Assembly: GCF_018678075.1 (NCBI RefSeq)
Contig: NZ_JAHHIR010000077.1
Location: forward strand, 1 to 51,374
Length of the DNA: 51,374 nucleotides
Origin: Epibacterium ulvae
GTDB taxonomy: Bacteria; Pseudomonadota; Alphaproteobacteria; Rhodobacterales; Rhodobacteraceae
Direction: 5' to 3'
A program made the translations under genes and the position numbers. Below, one piece after another: positions 4,166 to 27,410 of this stretch. Numbering within the stretch: position 1 is the first letter of the stretch; every line of letters begins with the position of its first letter. A model generated the notes under the pieces. It was not told where the DNA came from. It worked only from the letters and a program-made list of their open reading frames with translations, and did no database searches.

Positions 4166-4572
4166 GGACGCGCCTCAAGCCGTAGGATACGCAGGTCAGA
4201 CAGGCCGGATTGTGCTGCCAGATCCATCAGCACGACGGTGGATTGCAACGGCGCTGCGCCCGAGGGCAGCAGGAGCAACCGGGTTTCCGGCGCGGTGCGC
4301 GCGGTTTGGGCCAGAAGTGCGCGCAGATCTTCGCGCGACAGGGATGTGCCGCGTGCCATAAAGCCACCGTCGGCGGAAATGCGGATCATCAGCGAGGCAC
4401 GGTCGGTGCCTTGGGCGGCCCCCGACCCGCTGGCGGGCTGCACCACCGGGATCATATCGAGGTTCAGATAGGTCGAGGTCACCATGAAAAACACCAAGAG
4501 GATCATCATCACATCGATCATCGGAACGAGGGAGATCAGAGCCCTTGGGGATTGGCGACGGGTGAGTTTCAT
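4162..4572 (-). CDS. ExbD/TolR-family protein (first copy)
   Basis: A 136-residue ExbD/TolR-type protein. Its N-terminus MKLTRRQSPRALISLVPMID leads into a membrane helix containing the signature VPMIDVMMILLVFFMVTS with the conserved Asp. The rest is a periplasmic domain. It lies 4 bases after the ExbB/TolQ-like gene and overlaps the second exbD-like gene by 4 bases. Its signature is closer to the ExbD/TolR consensus (LVPMIDV) than that of the second copy. It is expected to form the rotor or plug of a proton-driven ExbB/ExbD-like complex. Confidence 0.88.
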   Translation of the reverse strand: MKLTRRQSPRALISLVPMIDVMMILLVFFMVTSTYLNLDMIPVVQPASGSGAAQGTDRASLMIRISADGGFMARGTSLSREDLRALLAQTARTAPETRLLLLPSGAAPLQSTVVLMDLAAQSGLSDLRILRLEARP

Positions 4573-4576
4573 CGCG

Positions 4577-8326: not shown

Positions 8327-8340
8327 GAAAGGAGCGGATG

Positions 8341-9837
8341 ATGGCTGAACAAGATCTCCAACAGGAAGCGGCCGCTGGCGAAGCGGCATTTGGTTCCAGC
8401 GAATTTGCAAACCTTCTGCAAAAGGAATTCCGCCCCAAGTCGGATCAGGCAAAAACGGCTGTTGAAAGCGCCGTCAAAACCCTTGCCGAACAGGCGCTGG
8501 CAAACACCGGGCTGATTTCGGACGACGCGCTGCGCTCGATCGAGAGCATTGTCGCCGAGATTGACAAGAAGCTGACGGAACAAGTGAACCAGATCCTCCA
8601 CAATGAGGAATTCCAGCAGCTCGAAAGCGCATGGCGCGGGTTGCACTACCTGGTGAACAACACCGAAACCGACGAGATGCTCAAGATCCGGGTGATGCCG
8701 ATCACCAAGAAAGAGCTGGGTAAAACGCTCAAGAAGTTCAAAGGCACCGCCTGGGACCAGTCCCCGATCTTCAAGAAGCTTTATACCGAAGAATTCAGCC
8801 AATTGGGTGGTGAGCCCTATGGCTCGCTGGTGGCGGACTTCCATTTTGACCATTCCCCGCCAGACATCGAACTGCTGGGTGAGATGTCCAAGATCGCAGC
8901 CGCAACCCATGCGCCGCTGATAACGGGTGCGAAACCAACCCTGTTCCAGATGGACAGCTGGGCGGAATTGTCGAACCCGCGCGATCTGACCAAGATCTTC
9001 CAGACCCCGGAATACGCCGCTTGGCGCTCCTTGCGGGACAGCGAAGATGCGAAATACGTCGGCCTTGCGATGCCGCGTTTCCTCGGACGTCTGCCTTATG
9101 GCTCCAAAACCGACCCGGTTGAGGAATTCGCCTTTGAGGAAGACACCGCAGGTGCGGGCAGCGAGAAATATGGCTGGGTCAATGCGGCCTATGGCATGGC
9201 GGTGAACATCACCCGTTCGTTCAAAATGTACGGCTGGTGCTCGCGGATCCGCGGTGTTGAAAGCGGCGGTACGCTGGAGGATCTGCCATCGCATACCTTC
9301 CCGACCACCGATGGTGGCGTGGACCAGAAATGCCCGACCGAGATCGCGATTGACGACCGTCGCGAAGCGGAACTGGCGAAAAACGGTATGATGCCGCTGA
9401 TCCACCGCAAGAACACCGATGTGGCAACATTCATGGGCGCGCAGTCTTTGCACAAGCCTGCCGAATATGACGATCCGGATGCAACCGCCAACGCAAACCT
9501 GGGCGCCCGTCTGCCCTATCTGTTCGCGACCTGCCGGTTTGCCCATTACCTGAAATGTATGGTGCGCGACAAAGTCGGCTCCTTCAAGAGCCGTCAGGAT
9601 ATGGAAAACTGGCTGCAGGAATGGATCAACAACTACGTGGATTTCAACGCTGACATTTCGTCAGAGTCTGAAAAGGCGCGCAAACCACTGGCTGCGGCAG
9701 AAGTGGTTGTGGAAGAGGTCGAAGGCAACCCGGGCTACTACAGCTCCAAGTTCTTCCTGCGTCCCCATTACCAGCTGGAGGGACTGTCGATTTCGCTCCG
9801 CCTGGTATCCAAATTGCCTTCAGAAAAGGGAGGTTAA
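8341..9837 (+). CDS. tssC: TssC (VipB) large sheath subunit
   Basis: A 498-residue TssC/VipB sheath protein of normal length. Recognisable blocks are NEEFQQLESAWRGLHYLV, LVADFHFDHSPPDIELLGEM, AMPRFLGRLPYGSKTDPVEE and the C-terminal YYSSKFFLRPHYQLEGLSIS, the last forming the handshake strands that link sheath subunits. ATG 8341 is chosen over ATG 8338 because the AAGGAG ribosome site at 8329-8334 is better spaced for it. It lies between tssB and hcp. A shortened TssC domain occurs again in the fusion protein downstream. Confidence 0.97.
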   Translation: MAEQDLQQEAAAGEAAFGSSEFANLLQKEFRPKSDQAKTAVESAVKTLAEQALANTGLISDDALRSIESIVAEIDKKLTEQVNQILHNEEFQQLESAWRGLHYLVNNTETDEMLKIRVMPITKKELGKTLKKFKGTAWDQSPIFKKLYTEEFSQLGGEPYGSLVADFHFDHSPPDIELLGEMSKIAAATHAPLITGAKPTLFQMDSWAELSNPRDLTKIFQTPEYAAWRSLRDSEDAKYVGLAMPRFLGRLPYGSKTDPVEEFAFEEDTAGAGSEKYGWVNAAYGMAVNITRSFKMYGWCSRIRGVESGGTLEDLPSHTFPTTDGGVDQKCPTEIAIDDRREAELAKNGMMPLIHRKNTDVATFMGAQSLHKPAEYDDPDATANANLGARLPYLFATCRFAHYLKCMVRDKVGSFKSRQDMENWLQEWINNYVDFNADISSESEKARKPLAAAEVVVEEVEGNPGYYSSKFFLRPHYQLEGLSISLRLVSKLPSEKGG

Positions 9838-9904
9838 CATTTCACAAATCACCCTTGGTTCTCAACGCACGTAAACGGTTACTGATTTTTGAAAGGACAG
9901 CACA

Positions 9905-10408
9905 ATGGCTGCGAATATGTTTATCGAGATCTCCGACATCGAAGGGGATTCGATGGAGCAAAAACACGAAAAGTGGATTGTTATTGAATCGGCGAGCTGG
10001 AACGTTGAACGCTCCGTCGAGATGAGCGATCTGGGGTCTACCCAGCGTATGCACGCCAACTCCAACTTTGGTAAGGTTGAGCTGACGTCGCAGATGGGCA
10101 AAGCCTCCAACGAGATCGCCAAATCGGTGGCCAACGGCACAATTCGTCCTGAAATCACCATGCACTGGTGCCGCTCGGGTGACGCACAGGCCGATGGTCT
10201 GCTGGAATATTCCGTTTGGAAGTTCAAGGAAGTGGTGATCGACAGCTATTCCCTGTCCTCCAGCGCGGATGGCATCCCGGAAGAGACCTGGTCGCTGGCC
10301 TATGCCGCGATTGAGCACACGTATAAGTCCACCAACCAAAAGACCGGTAAGCTGGAAAGCCCAGTGGTCTTTAAGTGGAACGTACAAAAAGGCAAGTTCG
10401 AGTACTGA
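9905..10408 (+). CDS. hcp: Hcp (TssD) tail-tube protein
   Basis: A 167-residue Hcp-family protein, the hexameric ring that stacks into the inner tube and is secreted. Characteristic blocks are MFIEISDIEGDSMEQKHEKW, IVIESASWNVER, NGTIRPEITMHWCRSG and VVIDSYSLSSSADGIPEETW, ending with VVFKWNVQKGKFEY. The ribosome site GAAAGGA is well placed for ATG 9905. A 67-bp leader separates it from tssC, and a strong hairpin follows at 10422-10446, as expected for a gene expressed above its neighbours. Confidence 0.96.
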   Translation: MAANMFIEISDIEGDSMEQKHEKWIVIESASWNVERSVEMSDLGSTQRMHANSNFGKVELTSQMGKASNEIAKSVANGTIRPEITMHWCRSGDAQADGLLEYSVWKFKEVVIDSYSLSSSADGIPEETWSLAYAAIEHTYKSTNQKTGKLESPVVFKWNVQKGKFEY

Positions 10409-10421
10409 TCCGGACTATTTC

Positions 10422-10446
10422 ATGCCCCGCATCGATTGCGGGGCAT
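10422..10446 (+). other. strong hairpin after hcp (attenuator or mRNA 3'-end stabiliser)
   Basis: ATGCCCCGCA (10422-10431) is a perfect inverted repeat of TGCGGGGCAT (10437-10446) around the 5-base loop TCGAT. No T-run follows, so complete termination is unlikely. It more probably reduces read-through into tagJ or protects the hcp message from 3' decay. Confidence 0.65.
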
Positions 10447-10479
10447 GGCCCAAGTAACCAGTATCCCCGGAGCCGTGCC

Positions 10480-11283
10480 ATGACCGCCGAAGACTATCTC
10501 AAAGCGGGCGATCCCGTAAAAGCGCTGGCTGCGTTGCAAGACAGTGTGCGCAAGGATCCGTCCAATCCAAAGCTGCGGATCTTTCTGTTTCAGCTGCTGT
10601 GTGTCCTGGGAGATTGGAAACGGGCGATTGCCCAGTTGAAATTAAGCGCGGAACTGGACGAAAGCGCCACCATGATGGCGCAGACCTACCGCGAAGCGAT
10701 TATCTGCGAAGTTTACCGTGACAAAGTGTTTGCCGGTGAAAAGGACCCTTTGATCCTGGGCGAGCCCGAGCCGTGGCTGGCGCATCTGATCGAGGCGCAG
10801 AAACATCTGGGCGCCGGTCGCGTCGAAGAGGCGGCGACATTGCGCGCCAAAGCGTTCGACCAAGCCCCCAGCAGCAGCGGGGCGCTGAATGGTGTGTCCT
10901 TTCAATGGGTTGCCGACGCCGATGTGCGGCTTGGCCCGGTGTTGGAAGTGCTGATCAATGGGAAATATTACTGGCTGCCGTTCGCCCAGATCCAAAGCCT
11001 TGAGATCGAAGAGCCAAGCGATCTGCGCGACACCGTTTGGATGGCGGGTGTCTTGACGCTGGTCAATGGCGGTGAGCTGGCGGCCTTGATCCCGACGCGG
11101 TATCCGGGCTCTGCCCAGGGCGACGCGGCGACCAAAATGGCCCGCGCCACCCAGTGGCAGGATTTGGGCCATGACACATTTGTCGGGCTGGGCCAGCGGT
11201 TGTTGGCGACCGATCAAAGCGATGTGGCCCTGATGGATGTGCGGTCGCTGGTGATGGCGGGAGATGCCGACACAGATGGTTGA
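10480..11283 (+). CDS. tagJ: TagJ/ImpE T6SS accessory protein
   Basis: A 267-residue ImpE/SciE-family protein (TagJ, HsiE). The N-terminal half has TPR-like helices (AEDYLKAGDPVKALAALQDS, KLRIFLFQLLCVLGDWKRAI). The C-terminal half carries the ImpE signature WVADADVRLGPVLEVLINGK and YYWLPFAQIQSLEIEEPSDL. In Pseudomonas the homologue binds the N-terminus of TssB and is associated with a subset of T6SS. The start at ATG 10480 follows a CCGGAG ribosome site. Its end overlaps the start of tssE. Confidence 0.9.
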   Translation: MTAEDYLKAGDPVKALAALQDSVRKDPSNPKLRIFLFQLLCVLGDWKRAIAQLKLSAELDESATMMAQTYREAIICEVYRDKVFAGEKDPLILGEPEPWLAHLIEAQKHLGAGRVEEAATLRAKAFDQAPSSSGALNGVSFQWVADADVRLGPVLEVLINGKYYWLPFAQIQSLEIEEPSDLRDTVWMAGVLTLVNGGELAALIPTRYPGSAQGDAATKMARATQWQDLGHDTFVGLGQRLLATDQSDVALMDVRSLVMAGDADTDG

Positions 11284-11773
11284 CAAGTCTCTTGCGGAAC
11301 GGCTGCAACCCTCCCTTTTGGATCGGTTGACCGACAACGATCCCGGAAATCGAAAAGAAGCGCGCGACAGTCGGGTGATCGACCTGCACCGGTTGCGGAT
11401 GATCATCCAACGGGATCTGTCGTGGCTCTTGAACACGCAAAACGCCGAATGCCATTTTGATGCGGAACGGTTTCCCCGTGCGGCGGCCTCGGTTTTGAAT
11501 TTCGGCCTGTCGGAGGTTTCGGGAAAATACACCGGCAGCGAACGCGCCGAGGCGATCCGCCTGTCGATTGAAAACGCGATTTCCCAGTTTGAGCCGCGCA
11601 TTATCGAAGGTTCGGTCGACGTGCAGCTGAGCGAGGGGACCGATGCGGCTGATATGACCGTCGGTCTGGATATTCGCGCCGATATGTGGGCGCAACCGAT
11701 GCCGTTGGAGCTGTATTTGCGCAGCAAGGTCGACCTGACAACCGGCGAAGTCGACGTGGATCGGGGGGGCTGA
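11276..11773 (+). CDS. tssE: TssE baseplate protein (gp25-like)
   Basis: A 165-residue gp25/lysozyme-like baseplate protein that links the sheath to the wedge. Recognisable parts are LQPSLLDRLTD near the N-terminus, SRVIDLHRLRMIIQRDLSWL, LNFGLSEVSGKYT and the C-terminal beta strands (MPLELYLRSKVDLTTGEVDV). ATG 11276 overlaps the tagJ stop by 8 bases; ATG 11264 is an alternative four codons upstream, but it abuts the GGGAG ribosome site. tssF follows within 4 bases. Confidence 0.92.
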   Translation: MVDKSLAERLQPSLLDRLTDNDPGNRKEARDSRVIDLHRLRMIIQRDLSWLLNTQNAECHFDAERFPRAAASVLNFGLSEVSGKYTGSERAEAIRLSIENAISQFEPRIIEGSVDVQLSEGTDAADMTVGLDIRADMWAQPMPLELYLRSKVDLTTGEVDVDRGG

Positions 11774-14656: not shown

Positions 14657-17377
14657 ATGACCGAAATTAGCCGCGTCGCGCTTTTTGGTAAGTTGAACAA
14701 ACTGGGCTATCAGGCCGTCGAAAGCGCGACGGTCTTCTGCAAAATGCGCGGAAACCCCTATGTGGAACTGGTGCATTGGATGCATCAATTGTTGGCCGGA
14801 CAGGACAGCGACCTGCACCGGATTATCGCCCATTACGATCTGGACACCGGCAAGATCGCGGCTGAGATGACCCGCAATCTGGATGGGTTGCCGCGCGGGG
14901 CCTCGACGATCTCGGATCTGTCGGACCATTTGATGGACGCGATGGAGCGCGGCTGGGTCTGGGGCTCGCTGCTGTATTCCGCCAATCAGGTGCGCTCGGG
15001 GCATTTGCTGTTGGGAATTTTGAAGACCCCGGCCTTGCGCAATATTCTCACCTCGATCTCGCCAGAGCTGTCGAAAATCGGCGCCGATGATCTGGCGGAT
15101 AACTTCCATGACGCCACCGATGGCTCTCCCGAAGAAGGGTTGGCGCCACAAGATGGTTCAAACGTTGGGGGTGGGGCTGAGCCGGGCGAAGCCTCGGGCG
15201 CAATGGCGCCGGGTGCCATGGGCAAGGGTGAGGCGTTGGAGCAGTTCTGCACCGACCTGACCGCACAGGCCAAAAACGGTGAGATTGATCCCATTGTGGG
15301 CCGTGATGAAGAGATCCGCCAGATTGTCGATGTGCTGATGCGTCGCCGTCAAAACAACCCGATCCTGACCGGTGAGGCGGGCGTGGGCAAGACGGCTGTA
15401 GTCGAAGGCTTTGCCCTGCGGATCGCACGCGGTGACGTGCCGCCTGCACTGCAGGATGTGCGCCTGATGGTGCTGGACGTGGGTCTATTGCAGGCGGGTG
15501 CCAGCATGAAAGGTGAGTTTGAAAACCGCCTGCGTCAGGTGATCGATGAGGTTCAGGCAAGCCCAGTTCCCATCGTGATGTTTGTCGATGAGACCCACAC
15601 GCTGGTCGGTGCTGGCGGTGCGGCTGGGACCGGGGACGCTGCGAACCTGCTGAAACCTGCATTGGCGCGCGGCACCCTACGGACAATTGGCGCAACCACC
15701 TGGGCGGAATATAAGAAATATATCGAAAAAGACCCGGCGCTGACGCGTCGTTTCCAGGTCGTAAAAGTGGATGAGCCGGGTATCCCCAAGGCCGTTCTGA
15801 TGATGCGTGGCATTGCCACCATGCTCGAAGGTCACCACCGGGTTCAGGTGCTGGACGAAGGGATCGAGGCGGCAGTGACCCTGTCCGCGCGTTACATTCC
15901 GGCGCGGCAATTGCCCGATAAATCCGTGAGCCTCTTGGACACGGCGTGCGCCCGCGTGGCTGTCAGCCAACATGCGGTCCCGGCCGAAGTTGACGACAGC
16001 CAGCGCCGCATTGAGGCGCTGACCACCGAGCTGGAGATCATCGGCCGTGATGAGACCGCCGGCTATGAGGTCGCGGACCGACGCGCGACTGCGACCGCCT
16101 CCAAGGAAGCGGAAGAGGTGCGACTGGCCGATCTGACCGCGCAATGGAACAAGGAAAAGGCCTGCGTGGATGCGATCCTTGACCTGCGTGCCACATTGCG
16201 TGACGGGGCCGCGCCCTTGGATGCACCGGTTGACGAAAACGCACCAGCGGCGGAGGGCGCCACCGAGAGCCACTTGTCAAACGAAGACCGCGCCAAGTTG
16301 ATGCAAGAGCTCAAAGACAAAAACGCCGAGCTGGAAACCCTGCAAGGCGACCGCCCGCTGATCCTGCCGATTGTGGATCATCAGGCGGTGGCTTCGGTTG
16401 TGGGCGATTGGACCGGCATCCCCGTGGGGCGCATGGTCAAGGATGAAATTGAGACCATCTTGAGCCTGGAAACCCATCTGGCCAAACGGGTGATCGGACA
16501 GGATCATGCGATGCAGATGATCTCTAAACGCATCCAGACCAGCCGCGCCGGGCTTGATAATCCCAATAAACCCATCGGTGTCTTCATGCTCGCGGGCACT
16601 TCGGGCGTCGGGAAAACCGAAACTGCGCTGGCCCTCGCGGAGGTGCTTTATGGCGGTGAGCAAAACATCATCACCATAAACATGTCCGAATACCAAGAGG
16701 CGCATACGGTCAGCTCGCTCAAAGGCGCCCCTCCCGGTTATGTCGGCTACGGCGAAGGCGGCGTTCTGACCGAAGCGGTGCGGCGCAAACCCTATTCCGT
16801 GGTCCTATTGGATGAGGTCGAAAAGGCCCACCCGGACGTGCATGAGATCTTCTTTCAGGTGTTTGATAAAGGCATCATGGAAGACGGTGAGGGGCGGGTG
16901 ATTGATTTCAAAAACACCCTGATCCTGCTGACCTCGAATGCCGGGTCCGAGATGATCATGGATCTGTGCAGTGACCCCGATCTGATGCCGGAACCCGATG
17001 GCATTGCCAAGGCGCTGCGCGATCCGTTGCTGAAAATCTTTCCGCCGGCGCTGTTGGGGCGTCTGGTCACCATCCCCTATTACCCGCTCAGCCCTGATAT
17101 GCTGTCAGAGATCACCAAACTGCAGCTCGGTCGGATCCAGAAACGAGTGGAAGAAGCGCACAGCGTGCCCTTTGTCTATACCGACGCGGTGGTCGAAGAG
17201 ATCGTCAACCGCTGTCAGGAGCTCGACAGTGGCGGCCGCATGATCGATGCGATTGTAACCAATACCATGCTGCCCGAAGTCTCAAACGAGTTCCTGCGCC
17301 GCCTGATCGAAGGCAAGGACGCCGAGAAAGTCGCAATTGACGTCGCCGACGGCGAATTCACCTACAGCTTTGATTAA
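14657..17377 (+). CDS. tssH: TssH (ClpV) sheath-recycling AAA+ ATPase
   Basis: A 906-residue Clp/Hsp100 ATPase of the ClpV class, which disassembles the contracted sheath. It has an N-terminal Clp_N domain (about 1-150, FCKMRGNPYVELVHWMHQLL). The first AAA+ module has Walker A GEAGVGKT (about residues 239-246) and Walker B VMFVDETHTLVGAGG. A middle helical region follows. The second AAA+ module has GTSGVGKT (about 647-654), Walker B VVLLDEVEKAHPDV and LTSNAG. The ClpB C-terminal domain comes last. The start ATG 14657 follows GAGGAG. It ends the first block of core T6SS genes and is followed by the unusual three-gene insert. Confidence 0.97.
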   Translation: MTEISRVALFGKLNKLGYQAVESATVFCKMRGNPYVELVHWMHQLLAGQDSDLHRIIAHYDLDTGKIAAEMTRNLDGLPRGASTISDLSDHLMDAMERGWVWGSLLYSANQVRSGHLLLGILKTPALRNILTSISPELSKIGADDLADNFHDATDGSPEEGLAPQDGSNVGGGAEPGEASGAMAPGAMGKGEALEQFCTDLTAQAKNGEIDPIVGRDEEIRQIVDVLMRRRQNNPILTGEAGVGKTAVVEGFALRIARGDVPPALQDVRLMVLDVGLLQAGASMKGEFENRLRQVIDEVQASPVPIVMFVDETHTLVGAGGAAGTGDAANLLKPALARGTLRTIGATTWAEYKKYIEKDPALTRRFQVVKVDEPGIPKAVLMMRGIATMLEGHHRVQVLDEGIEAAVTLSARYIPARQLPDKSVSLLDTACARVAVSQHAVPAEVDDSQRRIEALTTELEIIGRDETAGYEVADRRATATASKEAEEVRLADLTAQWNKEKACVDAILDLRATLRDGAAPLDAPVDENAPAAEGATESHLSNEDRAKLMQELKDKNAELETLQGDRPLILPIVDHQAVASVVGDWTGIPVGRMVKDEIETILSLETHLAKRVIGQDHAMQMISKRIQTSRAGLDNPNKPIGVFMLAGTSGVGKTETALALAEVLYGGEQNIITINMSEYQEAHTVSSLKGAPPGYVGYGEGGVLTEAVRRKPYSVVLLDEVEKAHPDVHEIFFQVFDKGIMEDGEGRVIDFKNTLILLTSNAGSEMIMDLCSDPDLMPEPDGIAKALRDPLLKIFPPALLGRLVTIPYYPLSPDMLSEITKLQLGRIQKRVEEAHSVPFVYTDAVVEEIVNRCQELDSGGRMIDAIVTNTMLPEVSNEFLRRLIEGKDAEKVAIDVADGEFTYSFD

Positions 17378-17415: not shown

Positions 17416-18369
17416 ATGGCCGAAGTCACGAGAACCTTCGAACTGATTACAGTGCAAGCCAAGAACCTGGATCTGCCGGATGGGAAAATCACCCTGAAAG
17501 TGTCCGGCAAAGAGGTCGATACCTCGCTGTTGGCCCGGATCATGGAGCCGGTTTACGCCTATCTTAACGACTACCGCAAAATCGCCATCAACCCGGCGAT
17601 CCAGAAATACGACAAAGAATTCGAAGGGATGAGCGACAAGTCCGAGGTCGAAAAGAAGGCCAAACTGGTCAACGCCGAGCTGAAAAAACTGGTCGGCAAC
17701 CTGGAAAAAGAAGCCCAGAACCGGATCAAAGCGTCTTGGGAAAAGATCAAGAAAGAGAACAAGGCCTATACCAAGTGGAAGCTGAAGATCGCGGCCAATA
17801 TCACCTGGGGTGTGGTCAAAATCGGCAAGTCCATCGCCGCGCTTGTGGCCAGTTCCGGCGCGAAACTGGATGAATATTACAAGGTCGCCAAATCGGTCTA
17901 TGGCATCGCCAAAGAGGTCAAAAAGGCCATCGCCACTGAAAGCAAGGTGCGCGAAGACCTGATGAAAGCTTTGGAGAAGATGGCCAAGGCGACCAAGGAC
18001 GGCAAGGTTGGCAAAAGCCACATCACCGCCGTTGAAGACACGGTGAAGCAATATAAGGTCAAGCTGACCGCCGCGCGGCAAAAGGCGTCGTCGATGGCGA
18101 AACCTTTGGAAAGACTGCTGCAATTGCAAGACGATGGCGTGGCCGTCACCAAAAAGCAGGAAGCGACGATCAATTCGATGATTTCGCAGATCATTGAATT
18201 CAACACGACCGAACAGAACGGCCGCAAGTTCGCCGATATCGCGTTGAAGAAAACCAAGGAAGCGCAAGGGACTTTGGATCTGAAAACGATCAAAGCCCAT
18301 GCGGAAAAGGTCAAGAAAGCCATCGATATCGCGCTGAAAGTTTTCGAAGTCGCGTCGGATATTCTGTGA
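17416..18369 (+). CDS. Lys-rich, almost wholly helical protein of unknown function
   Basis: 317 residues, start ATG 17416 with ribosome site GAGGAG at 17401-17406. There is no signal peptide. The N-terminal 30 residues look like a small beta segment (TRTFELITVQAKNLDLPDGK, ITLKVSGKEVD). The rest is predicted to be long amphipathic helices very rich in Lys, Glu and Ala (EKKAKLVNAELKKLVGNLEK, KSHITAVEDTVKQYKVKL). One stretch (ITWGVVKIGKSIAALVASSG, about 131-150) is hydrophobic enough to insert in a membrane. I recognise no family. It lies between tssH and a voltage-gated channel gene, 29 bases before the latter, and shares operon and codon use. It might be a structural adaptor, a channel partner or a secreted pore-forming effector; the sequence does not decide. 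Confidence 0.7.
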   Translation: MAEVTRTFELITVQAKNLDLPDGKITLKVSGKEVDTSLLARIMEPVYAYLNDYRKIAINPAIQKYDKEFEGMSDKSEVEKKAKLVNAELKKLVGNLEKEAQNRIKASWEKIKKENKAYTKWKLKIAANITWGVVKIGKSIAALVASSGAKLDEYYKVAKSVYGIAKEVKKAIATESKVREDLMKALEKMAKATKDGKVGKSHITAVEDTVKQYKVKLTAARQKASSMAKPLERLLQLQDDGVAVTKKQEATINSMISQIIEFNTTEQNGRKFADIALKKTKEAQGTLDLKTIKAHAEKVKKAIDIALKVFEVASDIL

Positions 18370-18398
18370 TCAGCTAAGGGCTGACGGGGAGAGGGATG

Positions 18399-19259
18399 AT
18401 GAACGCAGACCAAGCCAATCCAAGTGAGAACACCCTGCGTGACAGGGTGCGCGCCTTTGTGGAAACCGACAAGGTTGGCAATGCCATTCTTGCGATCATC
18501 ATCTTCAACGCCATTATGCTGGGGCTTTCGACCTCGGCGCATGTGATGGCTGTGGCGGGCGGCTTTATCTCAGTTCTTGATGATATCGTTCTGGCGATTT
18601 TTGTCATCGAGCTGTTGTTGAAGTTGTACGCATATGGCTTTCGGTTCTTTACCTCGGCCTGGAATATTTTTGACCTGGTTGTGGTGGGCCTGGGCCTGTT
18701 GCCGGACCGTCAGGGCCTGTCGGCGCTGCGGGGCCTGCGCGTCATTCGCGCCATGCGGCTGTTGTCGGTGATCCCGCAGATGCGGGCAGTGGTGCAGGCT
18801 TTGCTGGATGCGCTGCCCGGCATGGGCGCGGTTATCATTATGATTTCCATCGTCTTTTACGTCTTTGGCGTGATGGCGACCCTGATGTATGGCGCCAGTT
18901 TCAACGAGTGGTTTGGCACCCTTGGCCGGTCGCTGTACTCTTTGTTTCAGATCATGACATTGGAAAGCTGGTCGATGGGCATCGTGCGCCCGGTGATGGA
19001 GACCTATCCGGCGGCCTGGGCGTTTTTTGTGCCGTTTATCATCATCACCGCCTTCTCGGTCCTGAACCTGTTCATCGGTCTGTTGGTCAACACCATGCAG
19101 TCCGCCGTGGAGGAAGAGGCCGAGCAGGAGTTTGAAAAACTGCGCGATCTGGTCCGGACCGAGACCGATATGGTCGACGCCCATGTGCTGGCGCTGCACG
19201 AGGAAATCAAAGCCTTGCGCCGCGAAGTTGCCGCCCTCAAAGGAGGCACGGATGGCTGA
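18399..19259 (+). CDS. bacterial voltage-gated sodium channel (NaChBac/NavAb type)
   Basis: A 286-residue six-helix channel subunit that should assemble as a tetramer in the inner membrane. S1 is about residues 28-47, S2 58-78 and S3 86-103. S4 (ALRGLRVIRAMRLLSVIPQM) has Arg at every third place (four gating charges). The S4-S5 linker, S5, a pore loop with the filter TLESWSM (the same as NavAb) in the block LFQIMTLESWSMGIVRPVME, and S6 (about 207-233) follow. The C-terminal tail ends in a heptad-like helix (ALHEEIKALRREVAALKG), the tetramerising coiled coil of BacNav channels. ATG 18399 is preferred to 18396 by spacing from GGGGAG. The end overlaps the next gene by 8 bases. Nothing essential is missing. 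Its presence inside a T6SS operon is unusual. Confidence 0.95.
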   Translation: MNADQANPSENTLRDRVRAFVETDKVGNAILAIIIFNAIMLGLSTSAHVMAVAGGFISVLDDIVLAIFVIELLLKLYAYGFRFFTSAWNIFDLVVVGLGLLPDRQGLSALRGLRVIRAMRLLSVIPQMRAVVQALLDALPGMGAVIIMISIVFYVFGVMATLMYGASFNEWFGTLGRSLYSLFQIMTLESWSMGIVRPVMETYPAAWAFFVPFIIITAFSVLNLFIGLLVNTMQSAVEEEAEQEFEKLRDLVRTETDMVDAHVLALHEEIKALRREVAALKGGTDG

Positions 19260-22200
19260 TAGTTCGCAAAAATTCATCGCCCGCAATCGCGCGCCGCGTG
19301 TTCAGATTGAATACGATGTTGAGCTTTATGGCGCGGAAAAGAAGGTGCAGCTGCCATTTGTTATGGGGGTAATGAGCGATCTGGTGGGCAAATCCCAGGT
19401 GGCGCAGCCCGCTGTTGCGGACCGGACATTTCTGGAAATTGATGTCGACAATTTTGACGCGCGCATGCGGGCCATGGCACCGCGTGCGGCGTTTTCGGTG
19501 CCAAATACACTGACCGGTGAGGGCAATCTGCCGGTTGATCTGACCTTTGAGAGCCTTGAGGATTTCTCTCCTGGTGCGATTGCCGCCAAGGTTGATGCGC
19601 TGAAACCGCTGTTACAAGCGCGCCAAGAGTTGACAACCCTGTTGGCCTATATGGACGGCAAGGCGGGGGCCGAGGCGCTGGTGGAGAAGATCCTGCAAGA
19701 CCCCAAGCTGTTGTCCGGGTTTGAGCCAGATGCCAGCGCGCCGGGGGATCTTGCGGCTGTGCTGGATGAATTGCGCGCGCAGACCCCGGATGGAGAAGAC
19801 GCGGTGGATGACACTGCTGCGGCTCTGGCGAGCTTGGCGGCGGCAACACCTGTCACCAATGCGCCGCCAGAACCCGACGCGCAAGCGGTGCTGGATGGAT
19901 TGGCGGCGTCCGCGCCGTCATCGCCTGTGGTCAGCGATACGGCCGCAGATGTTTTGGGTGCCCTTGCCGATGCGGCACCTGATGAGGGGCCAGAAGAGTC
20001 TGCCGCCGAAGGGGTTCTGGACGCATTGCGGGCCGAAGCGCCGACAGAGACCGCCAGCGATGTGGTTGATACGGACGGGATTTTGGCGGGCGTTGCGGAT
20101 GCAGGGGTGCAGATAGCAAGCGACGTGGCGGATGATGTTGCAGATATCCTCGGCGATTTGGCGGCGATTGAGACGGCTGAGGAGAGCGCAAACAAGGACA
20201 CGGCCACTGATGTGTTAGAGCAGTTGAGCGCTGCCGCACCACAGGGTTTGGAAGGGGATGAGGCCGATGTGGGCGACGTTCTGTCTGAGCTGGCAGCGGC
20301 TGTTCCGGATGCGCCCGAACCCACTGATGCAGCTGTAGCGACCCTAGCCGCGCTGGCAGATGCCGCTCCGGAGGAGATATCCGAGGTTGACATTGATCTG
20401 GGTGATTTACTGGGCGAGCTGGACCCCGCGCCGACTGAGGAAGATGGGGCAGGGGTCGCGGAAATTCTGGCGGGTCTGGAGTGCGCAGACGTGGTTGAGG
20501 GGTCTACGCGTGATGAAGCTGGAGATGCGTTAAACACATTCGCACCCGCGACTGAGATCGAAGAGAGTTCGGCGGCCGAGCTGGATGATATTCTGGGCGA
20601 CCTCGTGAGCGAAGGAGAAGAGGATTCATCGGATGAGCTCGCCGATATCCTTGGTGATCTGTCGTCTGATGTGGATGAGACGCCCCCCAACGATGATGTG
20701 ACTGAGATGCTGGCGGCTTTGGCTGAGGATGAGCCTGCTGCGGTGGAAGATGCCCTTGGTCTGGATGACCTGTTGGGGGACTTGACGGACACCGAAACTG
20801 AGGGTGCGGAGGCGGGTGAGGGTCTGGATGACATCCTTGCCGATTTGGGCCTTGATGATGAGCCCGAGGGGACCTCTGAGCCAGCCGCAGACGCGTCGGA
20901 TGATCTGGGATTGGACGATTTGCTGGGCGATCTGGGTCTTGACGACGACGCAGGCGATACAGGGCTGGATGATCTGCTGTCTGATATCGAAAGCAGCGAC
21001 GAAGGTGACGGAGAGGCGGATCTGGATGCGCTTTTGGCGGATGCGCCAGAAAACGTGGATGATGATCTGGCGGGGCTGTTGGATGCGCTTGATCTGGACG
21101 CGGCGACAGAGGGTGCGTCCGAGACAACCGTCGCACCTGCGCGGGACGCTATTGAGTTTCCTTTTGGCACAATGTCCGCCACGCGCCCGGCTGCAGAGCA
21201 GTTGAAACGCCGGCGCTTCCGGATTGCGGTTTTGGGGGATTTTTCTGGCCGTTCTGCCAAAAGCGTGCTGGGGATCGGCGATGACTTGGCCAACCGGCCC
21301 GCGCAGTTGTTGGATGTGGATACGGTTGAAGAGGTGATCGAGGGTTTTGCCGGGGATCTGGCCTTGCCCATCGGCAAAGACGGCGCGATTTTGAACGTGC
21401 CTTTGGGCGGGTTGGATGATCTGCACCCGGATGAGCTGTATGAAAAGCTGGATTTGTTTTCGGAATTGGCCGGGTTGAAACAGCAACTGTCCAGCGGTGC
21501 GACTGCGGATCATGCGGCGAAATCGCTAAAAGCCTGGGGTGAGAAATACGGCACCCCGGCGGCGGCACCCCGGTTGACGTCCTCGGCGACAACTGTTCCC
21601 GCCGATCTGCGGTTGAGCGATTTTCAAAGGTTGATTGGCGATACCACGCCGCAAGCCGTCGAAAGTTCCCCGGTTGAGGAATTGCTGCAGCGGGTGGTGG
21701 GGCCCCATATCCGTGCCTTGCCCGATCCCAATGCCACGGCGATGGCGGGTGCGGTGACGCAATCCTTGACCCATGCGATGCGCATGGTCTTGCACCATCC
21801 GGAGTTTCAGGCGGTTGAGGCGCAGTGGCGCACGCTGGATCTGATGGCGCGGTCGATCCAGACCGACGATACGCTTGAATTGATGCTCTATGACGTCTCA
21901 GCCGAGGAGTTGGCGGCGGATCTGGCGGCAGAGGAAGACCTGACACAAAGCGGGTTTTTGCGGCTGTTGACCGATGAGCCGATGGATCCGGAATTGGGGC
22001 GCGGCGGCTATTCGGCGATTGTCGGGCTTTATACGTTTGAGGAAACGCCCCCCCATGCGGAGCTGTTGGGACGTTTGGCGCGGGTTGCGGCCCATGTGGA
22101 TGCGCCGTTTCTGACGGCGATTGCGCCCACATTCCTGGCAAGCGCAAAGGAAGAGCGGCCCAAACTGGTGGCAGAGGCTTGGGATACATTGACCGGCATG

Positions 22201-22866
22201 GCCGAGGCCAGCCACCTTGGCCTGGTGTCGCCGCGTTTCCTGTTGCGCAGACCTTATGGTGCCAAAACCGATCCGATATACGAGTTTGATTTTGAAGAGT
22301 TTTCCCAATCCGAAGGGTTGAAAGGCATGTTGTGGGGCAATCCGGTTGCCCTGGCTGCGGTCCTGATGGCGCGTTCGTTCAAGGAGAACGGTCCGGGGTT
22401 GAATCTGGGCTCGATCATGTCCTTGGGTGAGATGCCCTATCACTATGTTTTGGACCGCTTTGGCGATCAGGTGGCGCTGCCATGTACCGAGCGCAACATA
22501 GATCTGGACAAGATCGCCGCCGCCAAGGAACGTGGGTTTATGGCCGTGTCGGCGGTCAAAGGGCGCGATGAAGTGCGGCTGACCTCTTTCATGGCGGTCA
22601 GTGGCGGGGTTTTGGCTGGTCCGTGGAGCGATATTCCACCGCCGCCGCCATCGCCGCCCAAGGTCACGGCCACGCCAGAACCCGCGCCTGATACGACCGC
22701 GCCTGCGTCGGAGGCACCCGCTGATGCAGAGGATCCGGCAGATCTGGATGCAGAACTGGATGCACTGTTGGCCGGTTTTGACGACACCACGCCGGATGCA
22801 GACGTGACCAGCGAGGGTGAGGATGATTTTGATGCGGAGCTTGCCGCATTGTTGGATGATTTGTGA
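19252..22866 (+). CDS. giant sheath-like fusion: TssB - acidic repeat linker - TssB-like - TssC-like
   Basis: 1204 residues, start ATG 19252 after AGGAGG, overlapping the channel gene by 8 bases. Residues 1-165 are a full TssB domain almost copying the cognate TssB (RVQIEYDVELYGAEKKVQLP, LEIDVDNFDARMRAM). Residues about 165-633 are an extremely Asp/Glu/Ala/Leu-rich linker built from repeated units such as VLDALRAEAP, VLSELAAAVP, then LDDLLGDL and LDDILADL. At about 634-750 a second TssB-like fold appears (RRRFRIAVLGDFSGRSAK). At about 785-1119 there is a TssC-like domain (HHPEFQAVEAQWRTLDLMAR, LGLVSPRFLLRRPYGAKTDP). The TssC part stops at RLTSFMAVSGG and lacks the C-terminal 100-odd residues that form the inter-subunit handshake in TssC. 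A Pro-rich hinge and an acidic tail (DFDAELAALLDDL) end the protein. I infer a sheath-associated cap, adaptor or regulator rather than a bulk sheath subunit. Confidence 0.85.
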   Translation: MADSSQKFIARNRAPRVQIEYDVELYGAEKKVQLPFVMGVMSDLVGKSQVAQPAVADRTFLEIDVDNFDARMRAMAPRAAFSVPNTLTGEGNLPVDLTFESLEDFSPGAIAAKVDALKPLLQARQELTTLLAYMDGKAGAEALVEKILQDPKLLSGFEPDASAPGDLAAVLDELRAQTPDGEDAVDDTAAALASLAAATPVTNAPPEPDAQAVLDGLAASAPSSPVVSDTAADVLGALADAAPDEGPEESAAEGVLDALRAEAPTETASDVVDTDGILAGVADAGVQIASDVADDVADILGDLAAIETAEESANKDTATDVLEQLSAAAPQGLEGDEADVGDVLSELAAAVPDAPEPTDAAVATLAALADAAPEEISEVDIDLGDLLGELDPAPTEEDGAGVAEILAGLECADVVEGSTRDEAGDALNTFAPATEIEESSAAELDDILGDLVSEGEEDSSDELADILGDLSSDVDETPPNDDVTEMLAALAEDEPAAVEDALGLDDLLGDLTDTETEGAEAGEGLDDILADLGLDDEPEGTSEPAADASDDLGLDDLLGDLGLDDDAGDTGLDDLLSDIESSDEGDGEADLDALLADAPENVDDDLAGLLDALDLDAATEGASETTVAPARDAIEFPFGTMSATRPAAEQLKRRRFRIAVLGDFSGRSAKSVLGIGDDLANRPAQLLDVDTVEEVIEGFAGDLALPIGKDGAILNVPLGGLDDLHPDELYEKLDLFSELAGLKQQLSSGATADHAAKSLKAWGEKYGTPAAAPRLTSSATTVPADLRLSDFQRLIGDTTPQAVESSPVEELLQRVVGPHIRALPDPNATAMAGAVTQSLTHAMRMVLHHPEFQAVEAQWRTLDLMARSIQTDDTLELMLYDVSAEELAADLAAEEDLTQSGFLRLLTDEPMDPELGRGGYSAIVGLYTFEETPPHAELLGRLARVAAHVDAPFLTAIAPTFLASAKEERPKLVAEAWDTLTGMAEASHLGLVSPRFLLRRPYGAKTDPIYEFDFEEFSQSEGLKGMLWGNPVALAAVLMARSFKENGPGLNLGSIMSLGEMPYHYVLDRFGDQVALPCTERNIDLDKIAAAKERGFMAVSAVKGRDEVRLTSFMAVSGGVLAGPWSDIPPPPPSPPKVTATPEPAPDTTAPASEAPADAEDPADLDAELDALLAGFDDTTPDADVTSEGEDDFDAELAALLDDL
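19750..21120 (+). repeat. acidic repeat region encoding the linker of the sheath-like fusion
   Basis: About 20 degenerate units of roughly 20-30 codons. The first half has the pattern (V/I)L..LA..AP (VLDGLAASAP, VLGALADAAP, VLEQLSAAAP, TLAALADAAP). The second half has the pattern LDD(L/I)L.DL followed by acidic residues (GLDDLLGDL, GLDDILADL, ELDDILGDL). DNA identity between units is low, so these are old protein-level repeats rather than recent tandem duplications. The predicted product is a highly negative, probably extended or partly helical spacer of about 460 residues. Confidence 0.75.
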
Positions 22867-22926: not shown

Positions 22927-25038
22927 ATGGTAGTTAGTAAATCCCACGAAAGTGACATGGTCTGGATGGCGGGCAGCTATTCGGTGAAAGATCTGTTCAT
23001 GAAGCGGGCGATTGTGCGGGAGGGGTTGAGCCAACTGACCGAAACCACAATCGAGATCCAGTCCAAGAACAAAGCGGTGAAGCTGGATCAATTGGTCGGC
23101 AAAACCATGAACCTGCATGTGAGCGCGGCGGACAAGACCGAGCGCCGGTTTGCAGGCCTGTGTGTGTCCATCGAAAACATGGGGTTTCGCGATGGATACG
23201 GGCTTTATGTAGCAGAGGTGCGCCCTTGGCTGTGGCTGTTGACGCGTACTACGGATTGCCGTGTGTTCCAGGAAAAGACCGCCGTTCAGATCATCAAACA
23301 GATCTTTAGCGATCATGGGTTCAGCGATTTCCAAGACAAGCTGAGCGAGACCTATGAGGTGCGTGAATATTGCGTGCAATACCGCGAAAGCGACTACGAC
23401 TTTATCTGTCGGTTGATGGAAGAAGAGGGGATCTACTTTTATTTCGACAGCGAAAGCGGTGCTGACACGGTGGAGAAGATGATCCTATGCGATGGGATCA
23501 GTGCGCATTCGCCGGTCGCGGGCCATGCGGATATCGAATTTCATGCGCGTGATGACAATGACCGCCGCCGCGAGGATCATATCTCAGAACTGTCGATGGC
23601 AGAGAACCTGACCACCGGGAAAGTGTCGTTGAATGACTTTGATTTCCTGACCCCCTCTGCGGGGCTGGAGGTCAGCAGTGCCATTCCCAAAGGCTCGCAC
23701 AATCATAAGAGTTTCGAATTCTATGACTATCCCGGCCATTACCGCAAGGAAACCGGGCTGGGGAACAAACAGGCGCGGGTGCGGATGGAGGCTGAGGCGA
23801 TCCGCTACAAGCGCTGGCGCGGTGCGTCCAATGTGCGCACAATGGGGACCGGCAATACGTTCAAGCTGAAAGAACACCCGGACAAGGTTTTGAACGGCGA
23901 GTATCTGGTGACGGATGCGACGCATTATCTGCAAGTGTCAGGCGACTATTCCGAACGGGAACAGCGCAAGACCAAGGACAGCGATCAGGGCGAGATGCGG
24001 CGCGATATCAAGCCTGCGAATTTGGAATTCCCCGAAGAAGTTGCCGGGGACTCATATTCCTCCACCTTTGGGGCGATCGAAAAGGCCGAGCAGTTCCGCG
24101 CCCCGCTGGTGACCGCCTGGCCTGAGATCAGCGGTCTGCATACGGCGACGGTTGTGGGCTCAAGCGGCGAAGAGATCTGGACCGACGAACATGGGCGGAT
24201 CAAGATCCAGTTCCATTGGGATCGCGAAGGAAAGAAGGACGAGAAATCCTCGTGTTTTGTGCGGGTGATGACGCCATGGTCCGGAACAGACTGGGGCATG
24301 GTTGCGATCCCGCGCATGGGTCAGGAAGTGGTGATCCAGTTTGAGGAAGGTGACCCGGATCGGCCGATCTGTACGGGGATGTTGTTCAACAAGGACACGA
24401 TGCCGCCTTACACATACCCGGATGATCAGACGCAATTGGGGATCAAGACCAACTCCTCCAAAGGGGGCGGTGGTTATAACGAATTGATGTTTGACGATAA
24501 AAAAGACAGTGAGCTGATGCGCGTTCAGGCGCAAAAAGACCATCAGATGCTGATCAAGGACCGGTCAACGGTGACGATCGGTCTGGAGGCTCCCTCGCCC
24601 GAGGTGACGTCGGCGGATGACAAATCCTATGTGATGACGGTTGAGGAACATGTCACCGAGACAGTCAACAAGGGCGATCGGACCGAAACCGTGAAGACGG
24701 GCAACAAAATCGAGACCATCGAAAAAGGCGACATGACCGAGACGATCAAGATGGGCGACAAAACGGAAACCATCGAGATGGGCGATCACAAGGAAACCGT
24801 GAAGCTTGGCAATCTGACGGTGGATGTGACGGCCGGGAAGGTCAAGATGACGGCGGGGATGGAGATCTTGCTGCAGGTCGGTGCGTCCTCGGTCAAGATC
24901 GACAATTCCGGTGTGACAATCAAAGGACCGATGATCAAGATCGAGGGCAGTGGTATGGTGGAAGCCAAAGCCCCGATGACGACGGTCAAAGGCGATGCAA
25001 TGCTTACCCTAAAGGGTGGCCTGACGATGATTAACTAG
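22927..25038 (+). CDS. vgrG: VgrG (TssI) spike protein
   Basis: A 703-residue VgrG trimer subunit, the T6SS puncturing spike. It has an N-terminal gp27-like part (LTETTIEIQSKNKAVKLDQL, YCVQYRESDYDFICRLMEEE, GIYFYF). The gp5 OB-fold follows, around TDEHGRIKIQFHWDREGK, with VRVMTPWSGTDWGMVAIPRM and GQEVVIQFEEGDPDRPICTG. A beta-helix C-terminus contains a repeated GD.TETI-type motif (about residues 575-625). It ends at a short Gly/Met/Lys-rich tail (GDAMLTLKGGLTMIN) with no enzymatic extension, so it is a structural rather than an evolved VgrG. The ribosome site GGAAGGAGGAG precedes ATG 22927. A small accessory gene and a PAAR gene follow. Confidence 0.96.
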   Translation: MVVSKSHESDMVWMAGSYSVKDLFMKRAIVREGLSQLTETTIEIQSKNKAVKLDQLVGKTMNLHVSAADKTERRFAGLCVSIENMGFRDGYGLYVAEVRPWLWLLTRTTDCRVFQEKTAVQIIKQIFSDHGFSDFQDKLSETYEVREYCVQYRESDYDFICRLMEEEGIYFYFDSESGADTVEKMILCDGISAHSPVAGHADIEFHARDDNDRRREDHISELSMAENLTTGKVSLNDFDFLTPSAGLEVSSAIPKGSHNHKSFEFYDYPGHYRKETGLGNKQARVRMEAEAIRYKRWRGASNVRTMGTGNTFKLKEHPDKVLNGEYLVTDATHYLQVSGDYSEREQRKTKDSDQGEMRRDIKPANLEFPEEVAGDSYSSTFGAIEKAEQFRAPLVTAWPEISGLHTATVVGSSGEEIWTDEHGRIKIQFHWDREGKKDEKSSCFVRVMTPWSGTDWGMVAIPRMGQEVVIQFEEGDPDRPICTGMLFNKDTMPPYTYPDDQTQLGIKTNSSKGGGGYNELMFDDKKDSELMRVQAQKDHQMLIKDRSTVTIGLEAPSPEVTSADDKSYVMTVEEHVTETVNKGDRTETVKTGNKIETIEKGDMTETIKMGDKTETIEMGDHKETVKLGNLTVDVTAGKVKMTAGMEILLQVGASSVKIDNSGVTIKGPMIKIEGSGMVEAKAPMTTVKGDAMLTLKGGLTMIN

Positions 25039-26006: not shown

Positions 26007-27410
26007 ATGGGCGTACGGCTTAAATTTCAAAGCTCAGGATCGGTGCCCGGACGGGGCAAGCCGGTTGTGATGAACGGACCCAGCCTGACCGTTGGGCGGG
26101 GTGCGGGCTGTGATCTGGTCTTGCCCGACCCGGACCAGCAGCTGTCGCGCAATCACTGTGTGATTGAGGACCACAATGGCAATCTGGTTGTTGTGGATCT
26201 GAGCGCCAATGGCACGTTTTTGAATTATGCCAAGATCCCATTGGGCCGCACGCCGACGCCGTTGAATGACGGTGATGTTTTATGTGTGGGCAATTATGAG
26301 CTGGTGGTTGAGGTTTTCGACAGTGCCGCCGCCATGGATCCGCTGAATTTGGCCCCGGCGGCTGCGGTTGCGGCCTCCCCCGGTGTGGCGGAAAATGCAC
26401 CCGACCCGCTGGCCCTGTTGGATGATGCAGGTCCCGGTGGTGATTTCCTGGATGATCTGTTGGGGGAGGGGCCGACCGGCCCGTCGCAGTTGAAACCTGC
26501 CGACCCGATTGACGATCTGTTGCCCCCGATGGGCGAAGACGAAGACCCATTTTTTGCCAAACCACAGGACGGACGCGACGGCGAAGGTGCCAGCTTGCCA
26601 CATCACGCCCCGTCTGCCTCGGACAGTTTTGCAAGCTCTGCCGCGCCGCAATCCTCGGTCATTCCGGATGATTGGGATGATGAGTTTTTCTCGGACCTTG
26701 GCCCAAAAGACGCGCCAGACCCGGCACCTGCCGCCGCGCCACTAGCGGCTGAACCCGTAGCAGATACACCGTTTGATGACCCGCCTGAGCCCGCACCCGC
26801 TGCTGCGCCTGTTGCCACAGCCGAGTCCGCAGATGCGTTGCAGGCCTTGTTGCAGGGTTTGGGCGCTGAAGATCTGAAAATCGACGCGGATGAGCATCAC
26901 AGCACCTTCCTGCGGATGGGGCGGGTGATGAAAACCTTGGTCACGGGGCTGCGCGAAATCCTGATGACGCGCACCACGATCAAGTCCGAGTTTCGCATTG
27001 AGCAGACGATGATTTCGGCCGGGGGCAATAACCCGCTGAAATTCTCGATCACGCCGGAACAGGCGATCGAGGCAATGGTGCGCCCGGCGACCAAAGGATA
27101 CCTCAGCCCGGAAAGCGCCGCCAATCAGGCGCTGGATGACATCAAAGCCCATGAGGTGGCGATGGTCACCGGTATGGAAGCCGCCCTCAAAGGGGTATTG
27201 TCGCGCTTGGATCCCAAGATGCTGGAAGGCCAGATCGAACAACGCGGAGGTCTTGGCGGGCTCTTGCGGGGGAAGAAGGCGCAGTATTGGGACGTCTACG
27301 AAAAGCTTTACGCCGAGATCGCAGATCAGGCGAAAAACGATTTCCATGAGTTGTTCAGCCGTGAATTCGCCAAGGCCTATCAGGCCCAGTTGGAACGGCT
27401 CAAAAATTAA
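26007..27410 (+). CDS. tagH: FHA-domain T6SS activator (Fha/TagH)
   Basis: A 467-residue protein with an N-terminal FHA phosphothreonine-binding domain (about residues 20-95: LTVGRGAGCDLVLPDPDQQL, SRNHCVIED, DLSANGTFLN). A long Asp/Pro/Ala-rich linker (about 105-270) contains the short acidic motifs DFLDDLLGEG and DPIDDLLPPMGED. The C-terminal conserved T6SS-FHA region follows (LRMGRVMKTLVTGLREILMT, RTTIKSEFRIEQT, HELFSREFAKAYQAQ). Fha is the phosphorylation target and readout of the PpkA/PppA switch encoded downstream. The linker motifs resemble those in the giant sheath-like fusion, which may point to a shared partner. Confidence 0.92.
   Translation: MGVRLKFQSSGSVPGRGKPVVMNGPSLTVGRGAGCDLVLPDPDQQLSRNHCVIEDHNGNLVVVDLSANGTFLNYAKIPLGRTPTPLNDGDVLCVGNYELVVEVFDSAAAMDPLNLAPAAAVAASPGVAENAPDPLALLDDAGPGGDFLDDLLGEGPTGPSQLKPADPIDDLLPPMGEDEDPFFAKPQDGRDGEGASLPHHAPSASDSFASSAAPQSSVIPDDWDDEFFSDLGPKDAPDPAPAAAPLAAEPVADTPFDDPPEPAPAAAPVATAESADALQALLQGLGAEDLKIDADEHHSTFLRMGRVMKTLVTGLREILMTRTTIKSEFRIEQTMISAGGNNPLKFSITPEQAIEAMVRPATKGYLSPESAANQALDDIKAHEVAMVTGMEAALKGVLSRLDPKMLEGQIEQRGGLGGLLRGKKAQYWDVYEKLYAEIADQAKNDFHELFSREFAKAYQAQLERLKN

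Follow-up and report, generated by a model that had tools for sequence, protein, structure and literature searches.

The type VI secretion system (T6SS) operon in a 51,374-nucleotide stretch of Epibacterium ulvae DNA (contig NZ_JAHHIR010000077.1, assembly GCF_018678075.1; hereafter the window) encodes a single giant sheath protein fusion, in which a copy of TssB, a long acidic linker, a second TssB-like domain (TssB'), a TssC-like domain (TssC') and a short tail follow one another in one chain. The open reading frame (ORF) runs on the forward strand from an ATG at 19252 to a stop at 22866 without an internal stop and encodes 1204 residues, and the fusion is confirmed as real. Two features look new, namely the absence of the handshake strands from the joined TssB'C' core and the usual overlap of the fusion gene with a voltage-gated sodium channel gene. 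Our tentative proposal, which may well be wrong, is a sheath adaptor that is held on a tether, does not polymerise and works on the TagJ/ClpV recycling machinery; in clusters with the channel it would also be linked to the inner membrane.

In roseobacters a protein of this kind was named TssCL; it was reported in 20 of the 28 reference genomes that had a cluster of this type, and what it does in the sheath was left open (PMC9515649, 2022). The published TssCL carries two VipA domains, ~86% and ~26% identical to TssB, and a VipB domain ~31% identical to TssC (PMC9515649); the corresponding values for the window fusion are 80, 25, and 32%. With the same domain architecture, the same cluster type and separate tssB and tssC genes also present, the window fusion is, judged by its sequence, a member of the TssCL family. 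A word search of the main text of PMC9515649 gave no occurrence of channel, linker, sodium, transporter, or VipB_2, and no mention of the missing VipB_2 domain or of the C-terminal motif described below was found in that text. No function assigned to TssCL was found in the literature searched.

Architecture of the fusion protein

The initial annotation of the window had read the gene as a near copy of the cognate TssB, about 460 residues of acidic repeats, a second TssB-like fold and a TssC-like domain that stops before the handshake, encoded alongside separate, normal tssB and tssC genes. All of these parts were recovered (Table 1), with two corrections: the second TssB-like fold begins at residue ~653 rather than 634, and a tail of 86 residues after TssC' had been left out. 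The N-terminal TssB copy scores 193 bits against PF05591 (curated cut-off 24) and shares 80% identity with the cognate TssB across the first 145 columns. It contains both the N-terminal segment for TagJ binding (residues ~6-27) and the region in which the TssC-binding helix lies (~104-131). The linker comprises 467 residues, with 138 D+E against 5 K+R, and varies from 209 to 983 residues over 28 proteins. A relaxed LD-type motif occurs six times in the window linker, compared with a mean of 0.07 in composition shuffles, and the strict form, LDxLLxx[LF], occurs twice; across the 28 linkers, the median count of the strict motif is 4, and in 20 of them its count exceeds that in all 200 shuffles.

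The profile search of residues 634-1119 that had been suggested as a check returned VipB, and TssB' emerged from profile-profile comparison, with no Pfam match at 1e-3. In the hhalign alignment, TssB' corresponds to TssB from residue ~33 onward at ~25% identity, without the N-terminal strand and TagJ-binding segment, and two mismatched pairings run as controls gave probabilities of 0.4% and 0.05%. The TssC' domain scores 137 bits against PF05943 (cut-off 27) and aligns with the cognate TssC at ~100% hhalign probability (E 1.2e-38) as far as TssC residue ~375 of 503. The handshake domain VipB_2 (PF18945), present at residues 382-493 of the cognate TssC, was not found in the fusion by Pfam, and the fusion reaches 128.4 bits for the TssC equivalog TIGR03355 of NCBIfam, below the cut-off of 271.5. 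In the LSDFQRLIGD-type motif at the start of TssC', the F, L, and G are invariant in 53 sequences.

Two sets of relatives were compared, which share genomes. The family set (n = 43) consists of the 40 of 394 same-family genomes, E. ulvae included, that have the core at 47% identity or more, together with genome G371, Leisingera methylohalidivorans and Eleftheria terrae; the named loci are the best 80 of 534 confirmed stretches from a scan of genome contigs. A terminal motif, [DE]xxLxA[LM][LM]xx[LM], ends all 80 named-locus proteins and 42 of the 43 family-set proteins (the exception is G371), and an LDxLL-type motif lies within the last 140 residues in 72/80 and 39/43, respectively. Three distant short forms outside these counts (genomes G715, G511, and G901) stop shortly behind the core and have no tail with the terminal motif. 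The window tail is modelled as two helices with low to moderate confidence.

A sheath-protomer-like core without the handshake

In the Pseudomonas aeruginosa sheath, the handshake layer is formed by TssB strand beta1 together with TssC strands beta11, beta12, and beta13, domain 2 by two TssB strands with TssC strands, and domain 3 by helices of both proteins (PMC5807055). Since TssB' starts at TssB residue ~33 and TssC' stops at TssC residue ~375, the handshake parts are gone from TssB'C'. The core would lack domain 1 of both partners, retain domains 2 and 3, and probably be unable to polymerise into a tube.

Structure prediction, another of the suggested checks, succeeded for the core plus tail and failed for TssB' by itself. 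The AlphaFold model of the core plus tail, built with 53 sequences (the window and named loci), is confident, with a mean predicted local distance difference test score (pLDDT) of 83.7 and a predicted template modelling score (pTM) of 0.82. A Foldseek search of the PDB with this model returned nine chains at E <= 0.001, all from T6SS sheath entries and of TssC type by length, the best being the TssC chain 5n8n_B (E 1.1e-16); the TssB chain 5urw_1A matched weakly (rank 49, E 1.3, probability 0.44). TssB' modelled alone was poor (pLDDT 63, pTM 0.38), so its identity as TssB rests on the profile comparison and the joint model, where block means over its 140 residues are 73-95. This behaviour fits a TssB' that folds on TssC' as in an intramolecular pair, and TssB'C' is modelled as one joined sheath-protomer-like unit.

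Compared with the TssB/TssC heterodimer (5n8n, 3j9g, 5urw), TssB'C' likewise pairs the TssC N-terminal fold with a TssB-type partner, here in a single chain, but it is without the TssB N-terminal strand, the TssC C-terminal domain and the handshake layer; the TssB N-terminal strand is retained in the separate N-terminal copy of the fusion. In contractile phages and extracellular injection systems, too, the sheath protein carries both subunit halves on one polypeptide. Foldseek matches of the core to such single-chain proteins are weak (e.g., 9gtp and 8q1i, E 0.0026 or worse), the matches to TssC are far stronger, and the fusion, unlike them, retains a T6SS-type TssC motif.

The initial annotation had suggested that the fusion could enter the sheath at one end and act there as a cap or length limiter, among other roles. 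A pseudo-protomer could stack on the terminal ring through its domain 2 and 3 contacts and block the next ring, and a core that has lost the handshake parts while keeping the elements of domains 2 and 3, one of which packs between rings (PMC5807055), is in keeping with such a cap. None of the features found favours one sheath end over the other, however, and no change clearly specific to an end is seen in the TssB copy. Furthermore, clusters without the fusion gene are otherwise much alike, with tagJ in 12 of 13 and tssH followed by vgrG within 4-281 nucleotides in 11 of 13, so that any cap would have to be optional. These 13 comparison clusters were picked from family genomes having TssC and no close core match, a selection rather than a full census, and one of them belongs to G371, a genome that encodes a distant core relative at another place. 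We regard an end cap or limiter as unlikely.

Divergence and constraint of the TssB copy

Mean identities over 27 genomes are 83% between the fusion's TssB copy and the cognate TssB of the same genome, 79% among the copies, and 90% among the cognates. The N-terminal TagJ segment of the copies is on average 98.8% identical to that of their own TssB; within this segment, the copies are 96.9% and the cognates 99.0% identical to one another, compared with 69.5 and 86.5%, respectively, in the helix region. Across five segments, with only copies above 150 bits considered, the copies are 1.6 to 3 times as divergent as the cognate TssB, with a similar profile of constraint. Of the residues that contact TagJ, taken in HsiB1 numbering from PMC4239648, K9, F10, R18, Q20, Y23, and V25 are kept in 27/27 copies, A12 in 24/27, and L27 in 23/27. 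Because the constraint on the copy resembles that on the cognate TssB, it would be expected to fit anywhere along the sheath. As a side observation, the copy in Sulfitobacter sp. M05 (L095) is degenerate (75 bits), and its TagJ-binding segment is partly changed.

The greater divergence of the copies, together with the wide range of linker lengths, would suit a duplication remnant, an ordinary minor subunit that is incorporated into the sheath occasionally and without a special role. On the other hand, the ratio of nonsynonymous to synonymous substitution rates for the pair of the window and L077 is ~0.06 in the TssB copy and ~0.05 in the core, compared with ~0.42 in the linker and ~0.47 in the tail, and for this one pair the copy and core appear to be under purifying selection. 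The steady position of the gene and the common C-terminal motif likewise speak against a leftover subunit, which we consider very unlikely.

When 65 TssB domains were placed on a tree, the fusion copies mostly stood apart from the cognates, with weak support in many places; the copy of one genome (G391) is nested beside its own cognate (support 99/95). The copy/cognate label needs four changes on this tree, two of them forced by well-supported branches. Repeated gene conversion as the process that keeps the copy TssB-like is mostly unsupported, as the copies largely cluster separately and their identity to the own TssB (83%) is barely higher than to the TssB of other genomes (81%). Some conversion may nevertheless have occurred, since the own TssB is the closest of the 27 in 9/27 genomes.

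Likeness to ClpV and TagJ ligands

T6SS classes have been set by the residues of the ClpV groove, the TssC N-terminal motif and the presence of TagJ; the P. aeruginosa TagJ homologue binds the TssB N-terminus, and in the H1 class TagJ on this N-terminus was proposed to bring ClpV (PMC4239648). The window carries a tagJ gene, a TssC with the motif SEFANLLQKEF (EFxxLL type), a TssB with the N-terminus SQKFIARN, and a ClpV with R6, F10, I85, D87, and L88, which, placed by residue number, are the charged-groove residues of the ClpV1 class named in PMC4239648. On these sequence features (TagJ, the ClpV residues and the TssC motif), the window T6SS belongs with the P. aeruginosa H1 class.

By eye, the TssC' motif resembles that of the TssC of the same genome in five of six genomes: SDFQRLI and SEFANLL in the window, DDFARLV and SDFSALL in Eleftheria, FLDSIMQET and LLSQIMTET in G715, ILDTML and LLEQAI in G511, and DLLQSALDAT and LLDQAISAT in G901. 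As the TssC' motif resembles that of its own TssC, the ClpV/TagJ machinery is favoured, on sequence evidence, as the candidate partner of the fusion.

The same likeness could serve a decoy or brake, in which a soluble, contracted-like protomer would draw TagJ and ClpV away from real sheaths by competition. The TssC-type motif in TssC', a TssB N-terminus with the TagJ contacts and a core whose missing parts would prevent polymerisation all suit such a decoy. It would, however, need neither a TssB domain that pairs with TssC nor a channel partner, and the TssB copy is absent from core-only forms. A free decoy therefore appears quite unlikely.

The overlapping sodium channel gene

The gene directly upstream of the fusion encodes a putative BacNav channel, of the same family as NavAb and similar channels, with an Ion_trans domain, the S4 arginines and a BacNav-type selectivity filter, TLESWSMGIVRP; its best match to solved bacterial channels has an E value of 3e-77. 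The channel stop overlaps the fusion start by 8 nucleotides (19252-19259). Among 49 long-form loci with a channel (counted over L075 and L077-L156), the overlap is 8 nucleotides in 26, 4 in 16, and 11 in 3; three of the remaining four have a gap of 1 or 6 nucleotides and one has no value. The spacing is more mixed in short forms. Where tssH and vgrG were both in view, a channel was found in 29 of 34 family-set fusion clusters and in 54 of 66 named fusion clusters (the Leisingera plasmid locus L075 included), compared with 0/13 related clusters without the fusion. The 17 of these 100 fusion clusters that have no channel show that it is dispensable for the basic role of the fusion. No earlier report of the pairing of these two genes was found among the titles and abstract openings listed.

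Channel-type matches occur in 101 of 149 family genomes, T6SS-linked ones included, and E. ulvae itself has a second BacNav-type channel on a different contig, 49% identical to the first. On a tree, a single branch (support 100/99) divides 31 T6SS-linked channels from 17 further BacNav channels in the family, although the bootstrap had not settled and one long T6SS-linked branch that meets the housekeeping group (L071) was flagged. The filter and S4 are conserved in 88 T6SS-linked channel rows, and the filter is identical in the T6SS-linked and the other channels of the family.

Among the ideas of the initial annotation, a membrane anchor or tether gains most, in an indirect way, from this overlapping gene. 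A stronger version is a voltage-coupled trigger, in which the co-translated channel would respond to depolarisation and use the fusion to position or fire the sheath. The separate grouping of the T6SS-linked channels, their conserved filter and S4, the gene overlap and the co-occurrence with the fusion are in line with such a trigger. Gene overlaps are common in compact operons, however, the putative coupling is suggested by gene arrangement, and the channel is missing from the clusters mentioned above. A trigger of this kind is rather improbable.

Distribution of the fusion and its core

The core is matched at E <= 0.001 in 102 of the 394 same-family genomes, in most of them through the normal TssC only. 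In the family set, 28 proteins have the TssB copy, 11 are without it, and 4 are cut by contig ends. Complete 5' ends are available for 68 of the 80 named loci, of which 55 have an in-frame TssB copy, 12 have fewer than 160 residues before the core, and one has the degenerate TssB of L095. Entry into the sheath by way of the TssB copy, which had been put forward as the basis of the function, cannot be the core function, because 11/39 and 12/68 relatives with complete 5' ends have no in-frame copy. The gene position is steady: vgrG follows the fusion directly (<400 nucleotides) in 78 of the 80 named loci; none of the 80 lacks vgrG, and 65 of them have tssH in view.

The joined form in 55 of 68 loci, together with the complete plasmid record of Leisingera methylohalidivorans, in which one coding sequence is annotated, all but rules out a frameshift or assembly artefact that had joined separate genes, and the objection raised with the initial annotation, a sequencing frameshift, did not hold. 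One relative, L112 (Pseudophaeobacter leonis, 7887-11761), is counted among the 12 and has the TssB-linker part and the core on two overlapping ORFs, either a true split or a frameshift.

Beyond the family, and with the own genome set aside, the full core was detected in 2 of 398 phylum-spread genomes (G715 and G511) and 1 of 385 class-spread genomes (G901), as well as in Eleftheria terrae (Burkholderiales). All four are core-only forms. The published TssCL was reported only in Alphaproteobacteria (PMC9515649), in contrast to the core-only relatives found here in Eleftheria terrae and in two genomes of other classes of the phylum. Since core-only forms exist, some of them outside Alphaproteobacteria, the TssB copy appears to be an add-on to the core. 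The G511 core lies beside tagH and the Eleftheria core after tssK, in T6SS clusters with different gene neighbourhoods. The core genes of G715 and G901 have unrelated neighbours and lie apart from the T6SS genes that these genomes also contain. Tateyamaria clusters, which have two tssC genes with a mutual identity of 34-37% and no tssCL (PMC9515649), may carry the core-only form as their second tssC. Two fusion clusters have no recognised tagJ in view (L065 and L142), and both are core-only, without the TssB copy; two clusters are too few to support a tie between the loss of tagJ and the loss of the copy.

Proposed role of the fusion

In the adaptor reading, the TssB end would dock on the sheath by pairing with TssC, on TagJ, or on both, and the long acidic arm would tether the TssB'C' pseudo-protomer at the docking site. 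The pseudo-protomer, the tail and perhaps the motif-rich arm may then present ClpV/TagJ-type ligands, and the fusion would be a sheath-bound adaptor that recruits, paces, or restrains the recycling of sheaths after contraction. In clusters with the channel, channel and fusion are probably made in step, and the channel could anchor or regulate the adaptor at the inner membrane. The location of the fusion gene between tssH and vgrG in roseobacter-type clusters, usually after the channel gene, supports this reading, as do the retained TagJ contacts, the purifying selection on the TssB copy and core, the ClpV1-class residues of the window ClpV and the shared terminal motif.

Several observations weigh against it. 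Because the linker abounds in A, D, L, and E, the likeness of its motifs to ClpV ligands is weak evidence, and the TagJ segment enjoys no special protection in the TssB copies (divergence 3.1% among copies vs 1.0% among cognates). No complex was obtained between charged-groove ClpV1 and the TssC N-terminal peptide (PMC4239648), and direct docking of the TssC' motif is accordingly less likely for this class. G371 shows a poor motif match (ETMNRLF vs SDFAALL), the core-only genes of G715 and G901 (L187 and L189) are found in ~20 kb that contain no recognised T6SS gene, and 17 fusion clusters are without the channel.

A more far-reaching view is that of a T6SS with an electrical input, in which the coupled channel and the tethered pseudo-protomer relay changes of membrane potential, caused for example by attack, to sheath assembly, firing, or ClpV recycling, with the TssB copy on the sheath or on TagJ as the tether. 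We judge it decidedly improbable. If the channel coupling were functional, it would tie membrane potential directly to a contractile injection machine and assign a concrete task to one group of bacterial sodium channels. TssCL itself is a conserved T6SS component, whose core is now a testable part, a natural and probably non-polymerising sheath mimic.

Operon and genome context

The operon order in the window is tssA-B-C-hcp-tagJ-E-F-G-H, an ORF without a Pfam match, the channel gene, the fusion gene, and vgrG, followed by a DUF6931 gene, tagH, K, L, M, tagF, and a PP2C gene; tssM and tagF were called by match to the annotated Leisingera cluster. In the whole source genome, PF05591 has two matches, the cognate tssB and the fusion, and PF05943 also has two, the cognate tssC and the fusion.

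Table 1. Segments of the fusion protein and other T6SS-associated features, with positions in the window
Feature	Position	Strand	Evidence or remark
N-terminal TssB (VipA) copy, residues 1-155	19252-19716	+	PF05591, E 3e-57 (residues 10-155)
Acidic repeat-rich linker, residues ~168-633, motifs such as LDDLLGDL	19753-21150	+	
TssB' domain, residues ~653-765	21208-21546	+	hhalign probability 94.6%, E 6.5e-8
TssC'-type N-terminal motif LSDFQRLIGD	21613-21642	+	Counterpart of TssC motif SEFANLLQKEF
TssC' domain, residues ~828-1116	21733-22599	+	PF05943 (VipB), residues 834-1113, E 7.4e-40
C-terminal tail, 86 residues, with GPW, LDALLAGF-type and terminal DAELAALLDDL motifs	22606-22863	+	
Cognate tssB	7814-8326	+	PF05591, 5e-59
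Cognate tssC	8338-9837	+	Pfam VipB (residues 70-372) and VipB_2 (382-493)
tagJ (ImpE family)	10480-11283	+	PF07024, 1.2e-44
tssH (ClpV)	14657-17377	+	Match to ClpV1 N-domain 4uqw, residues 1-161, E 8.3e-58
ORF between tssH and channel gene	17416-18369	+	No Pfam match
BacNav-type voltage-gated sodium channel gene	18396-19259	+	PF00520, 1.5e-37
vgrG (tssI), next gene 3' of the fusion	22927-25038	+	TIGR03361, 2e-167

The interval between tssH and the channel gene holds ORFs that differ in sequence and number between genomes, from none to several kb, and may serve as a cargo site that takes up effector or immunity genes. TagH (26007-27410) contains LDDLLG-type motifs resembling those of the fusion linker. 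Genes for a PP2C phosphatase and a Ser/Thr kinase lie at 34491-37330, and TagH (FHA) is encoded in the cluster as well; phosphorylation control of the window T6SS is probable. Just upstream of the operon, on the reverse strand (2331-5194), are an ExbB/MotA-type gene, two ExbD-type genes and a DUF4384-like gene, and a similar ExbB/ExbD-type set is annotated beside the Leisingera cluster (L075).

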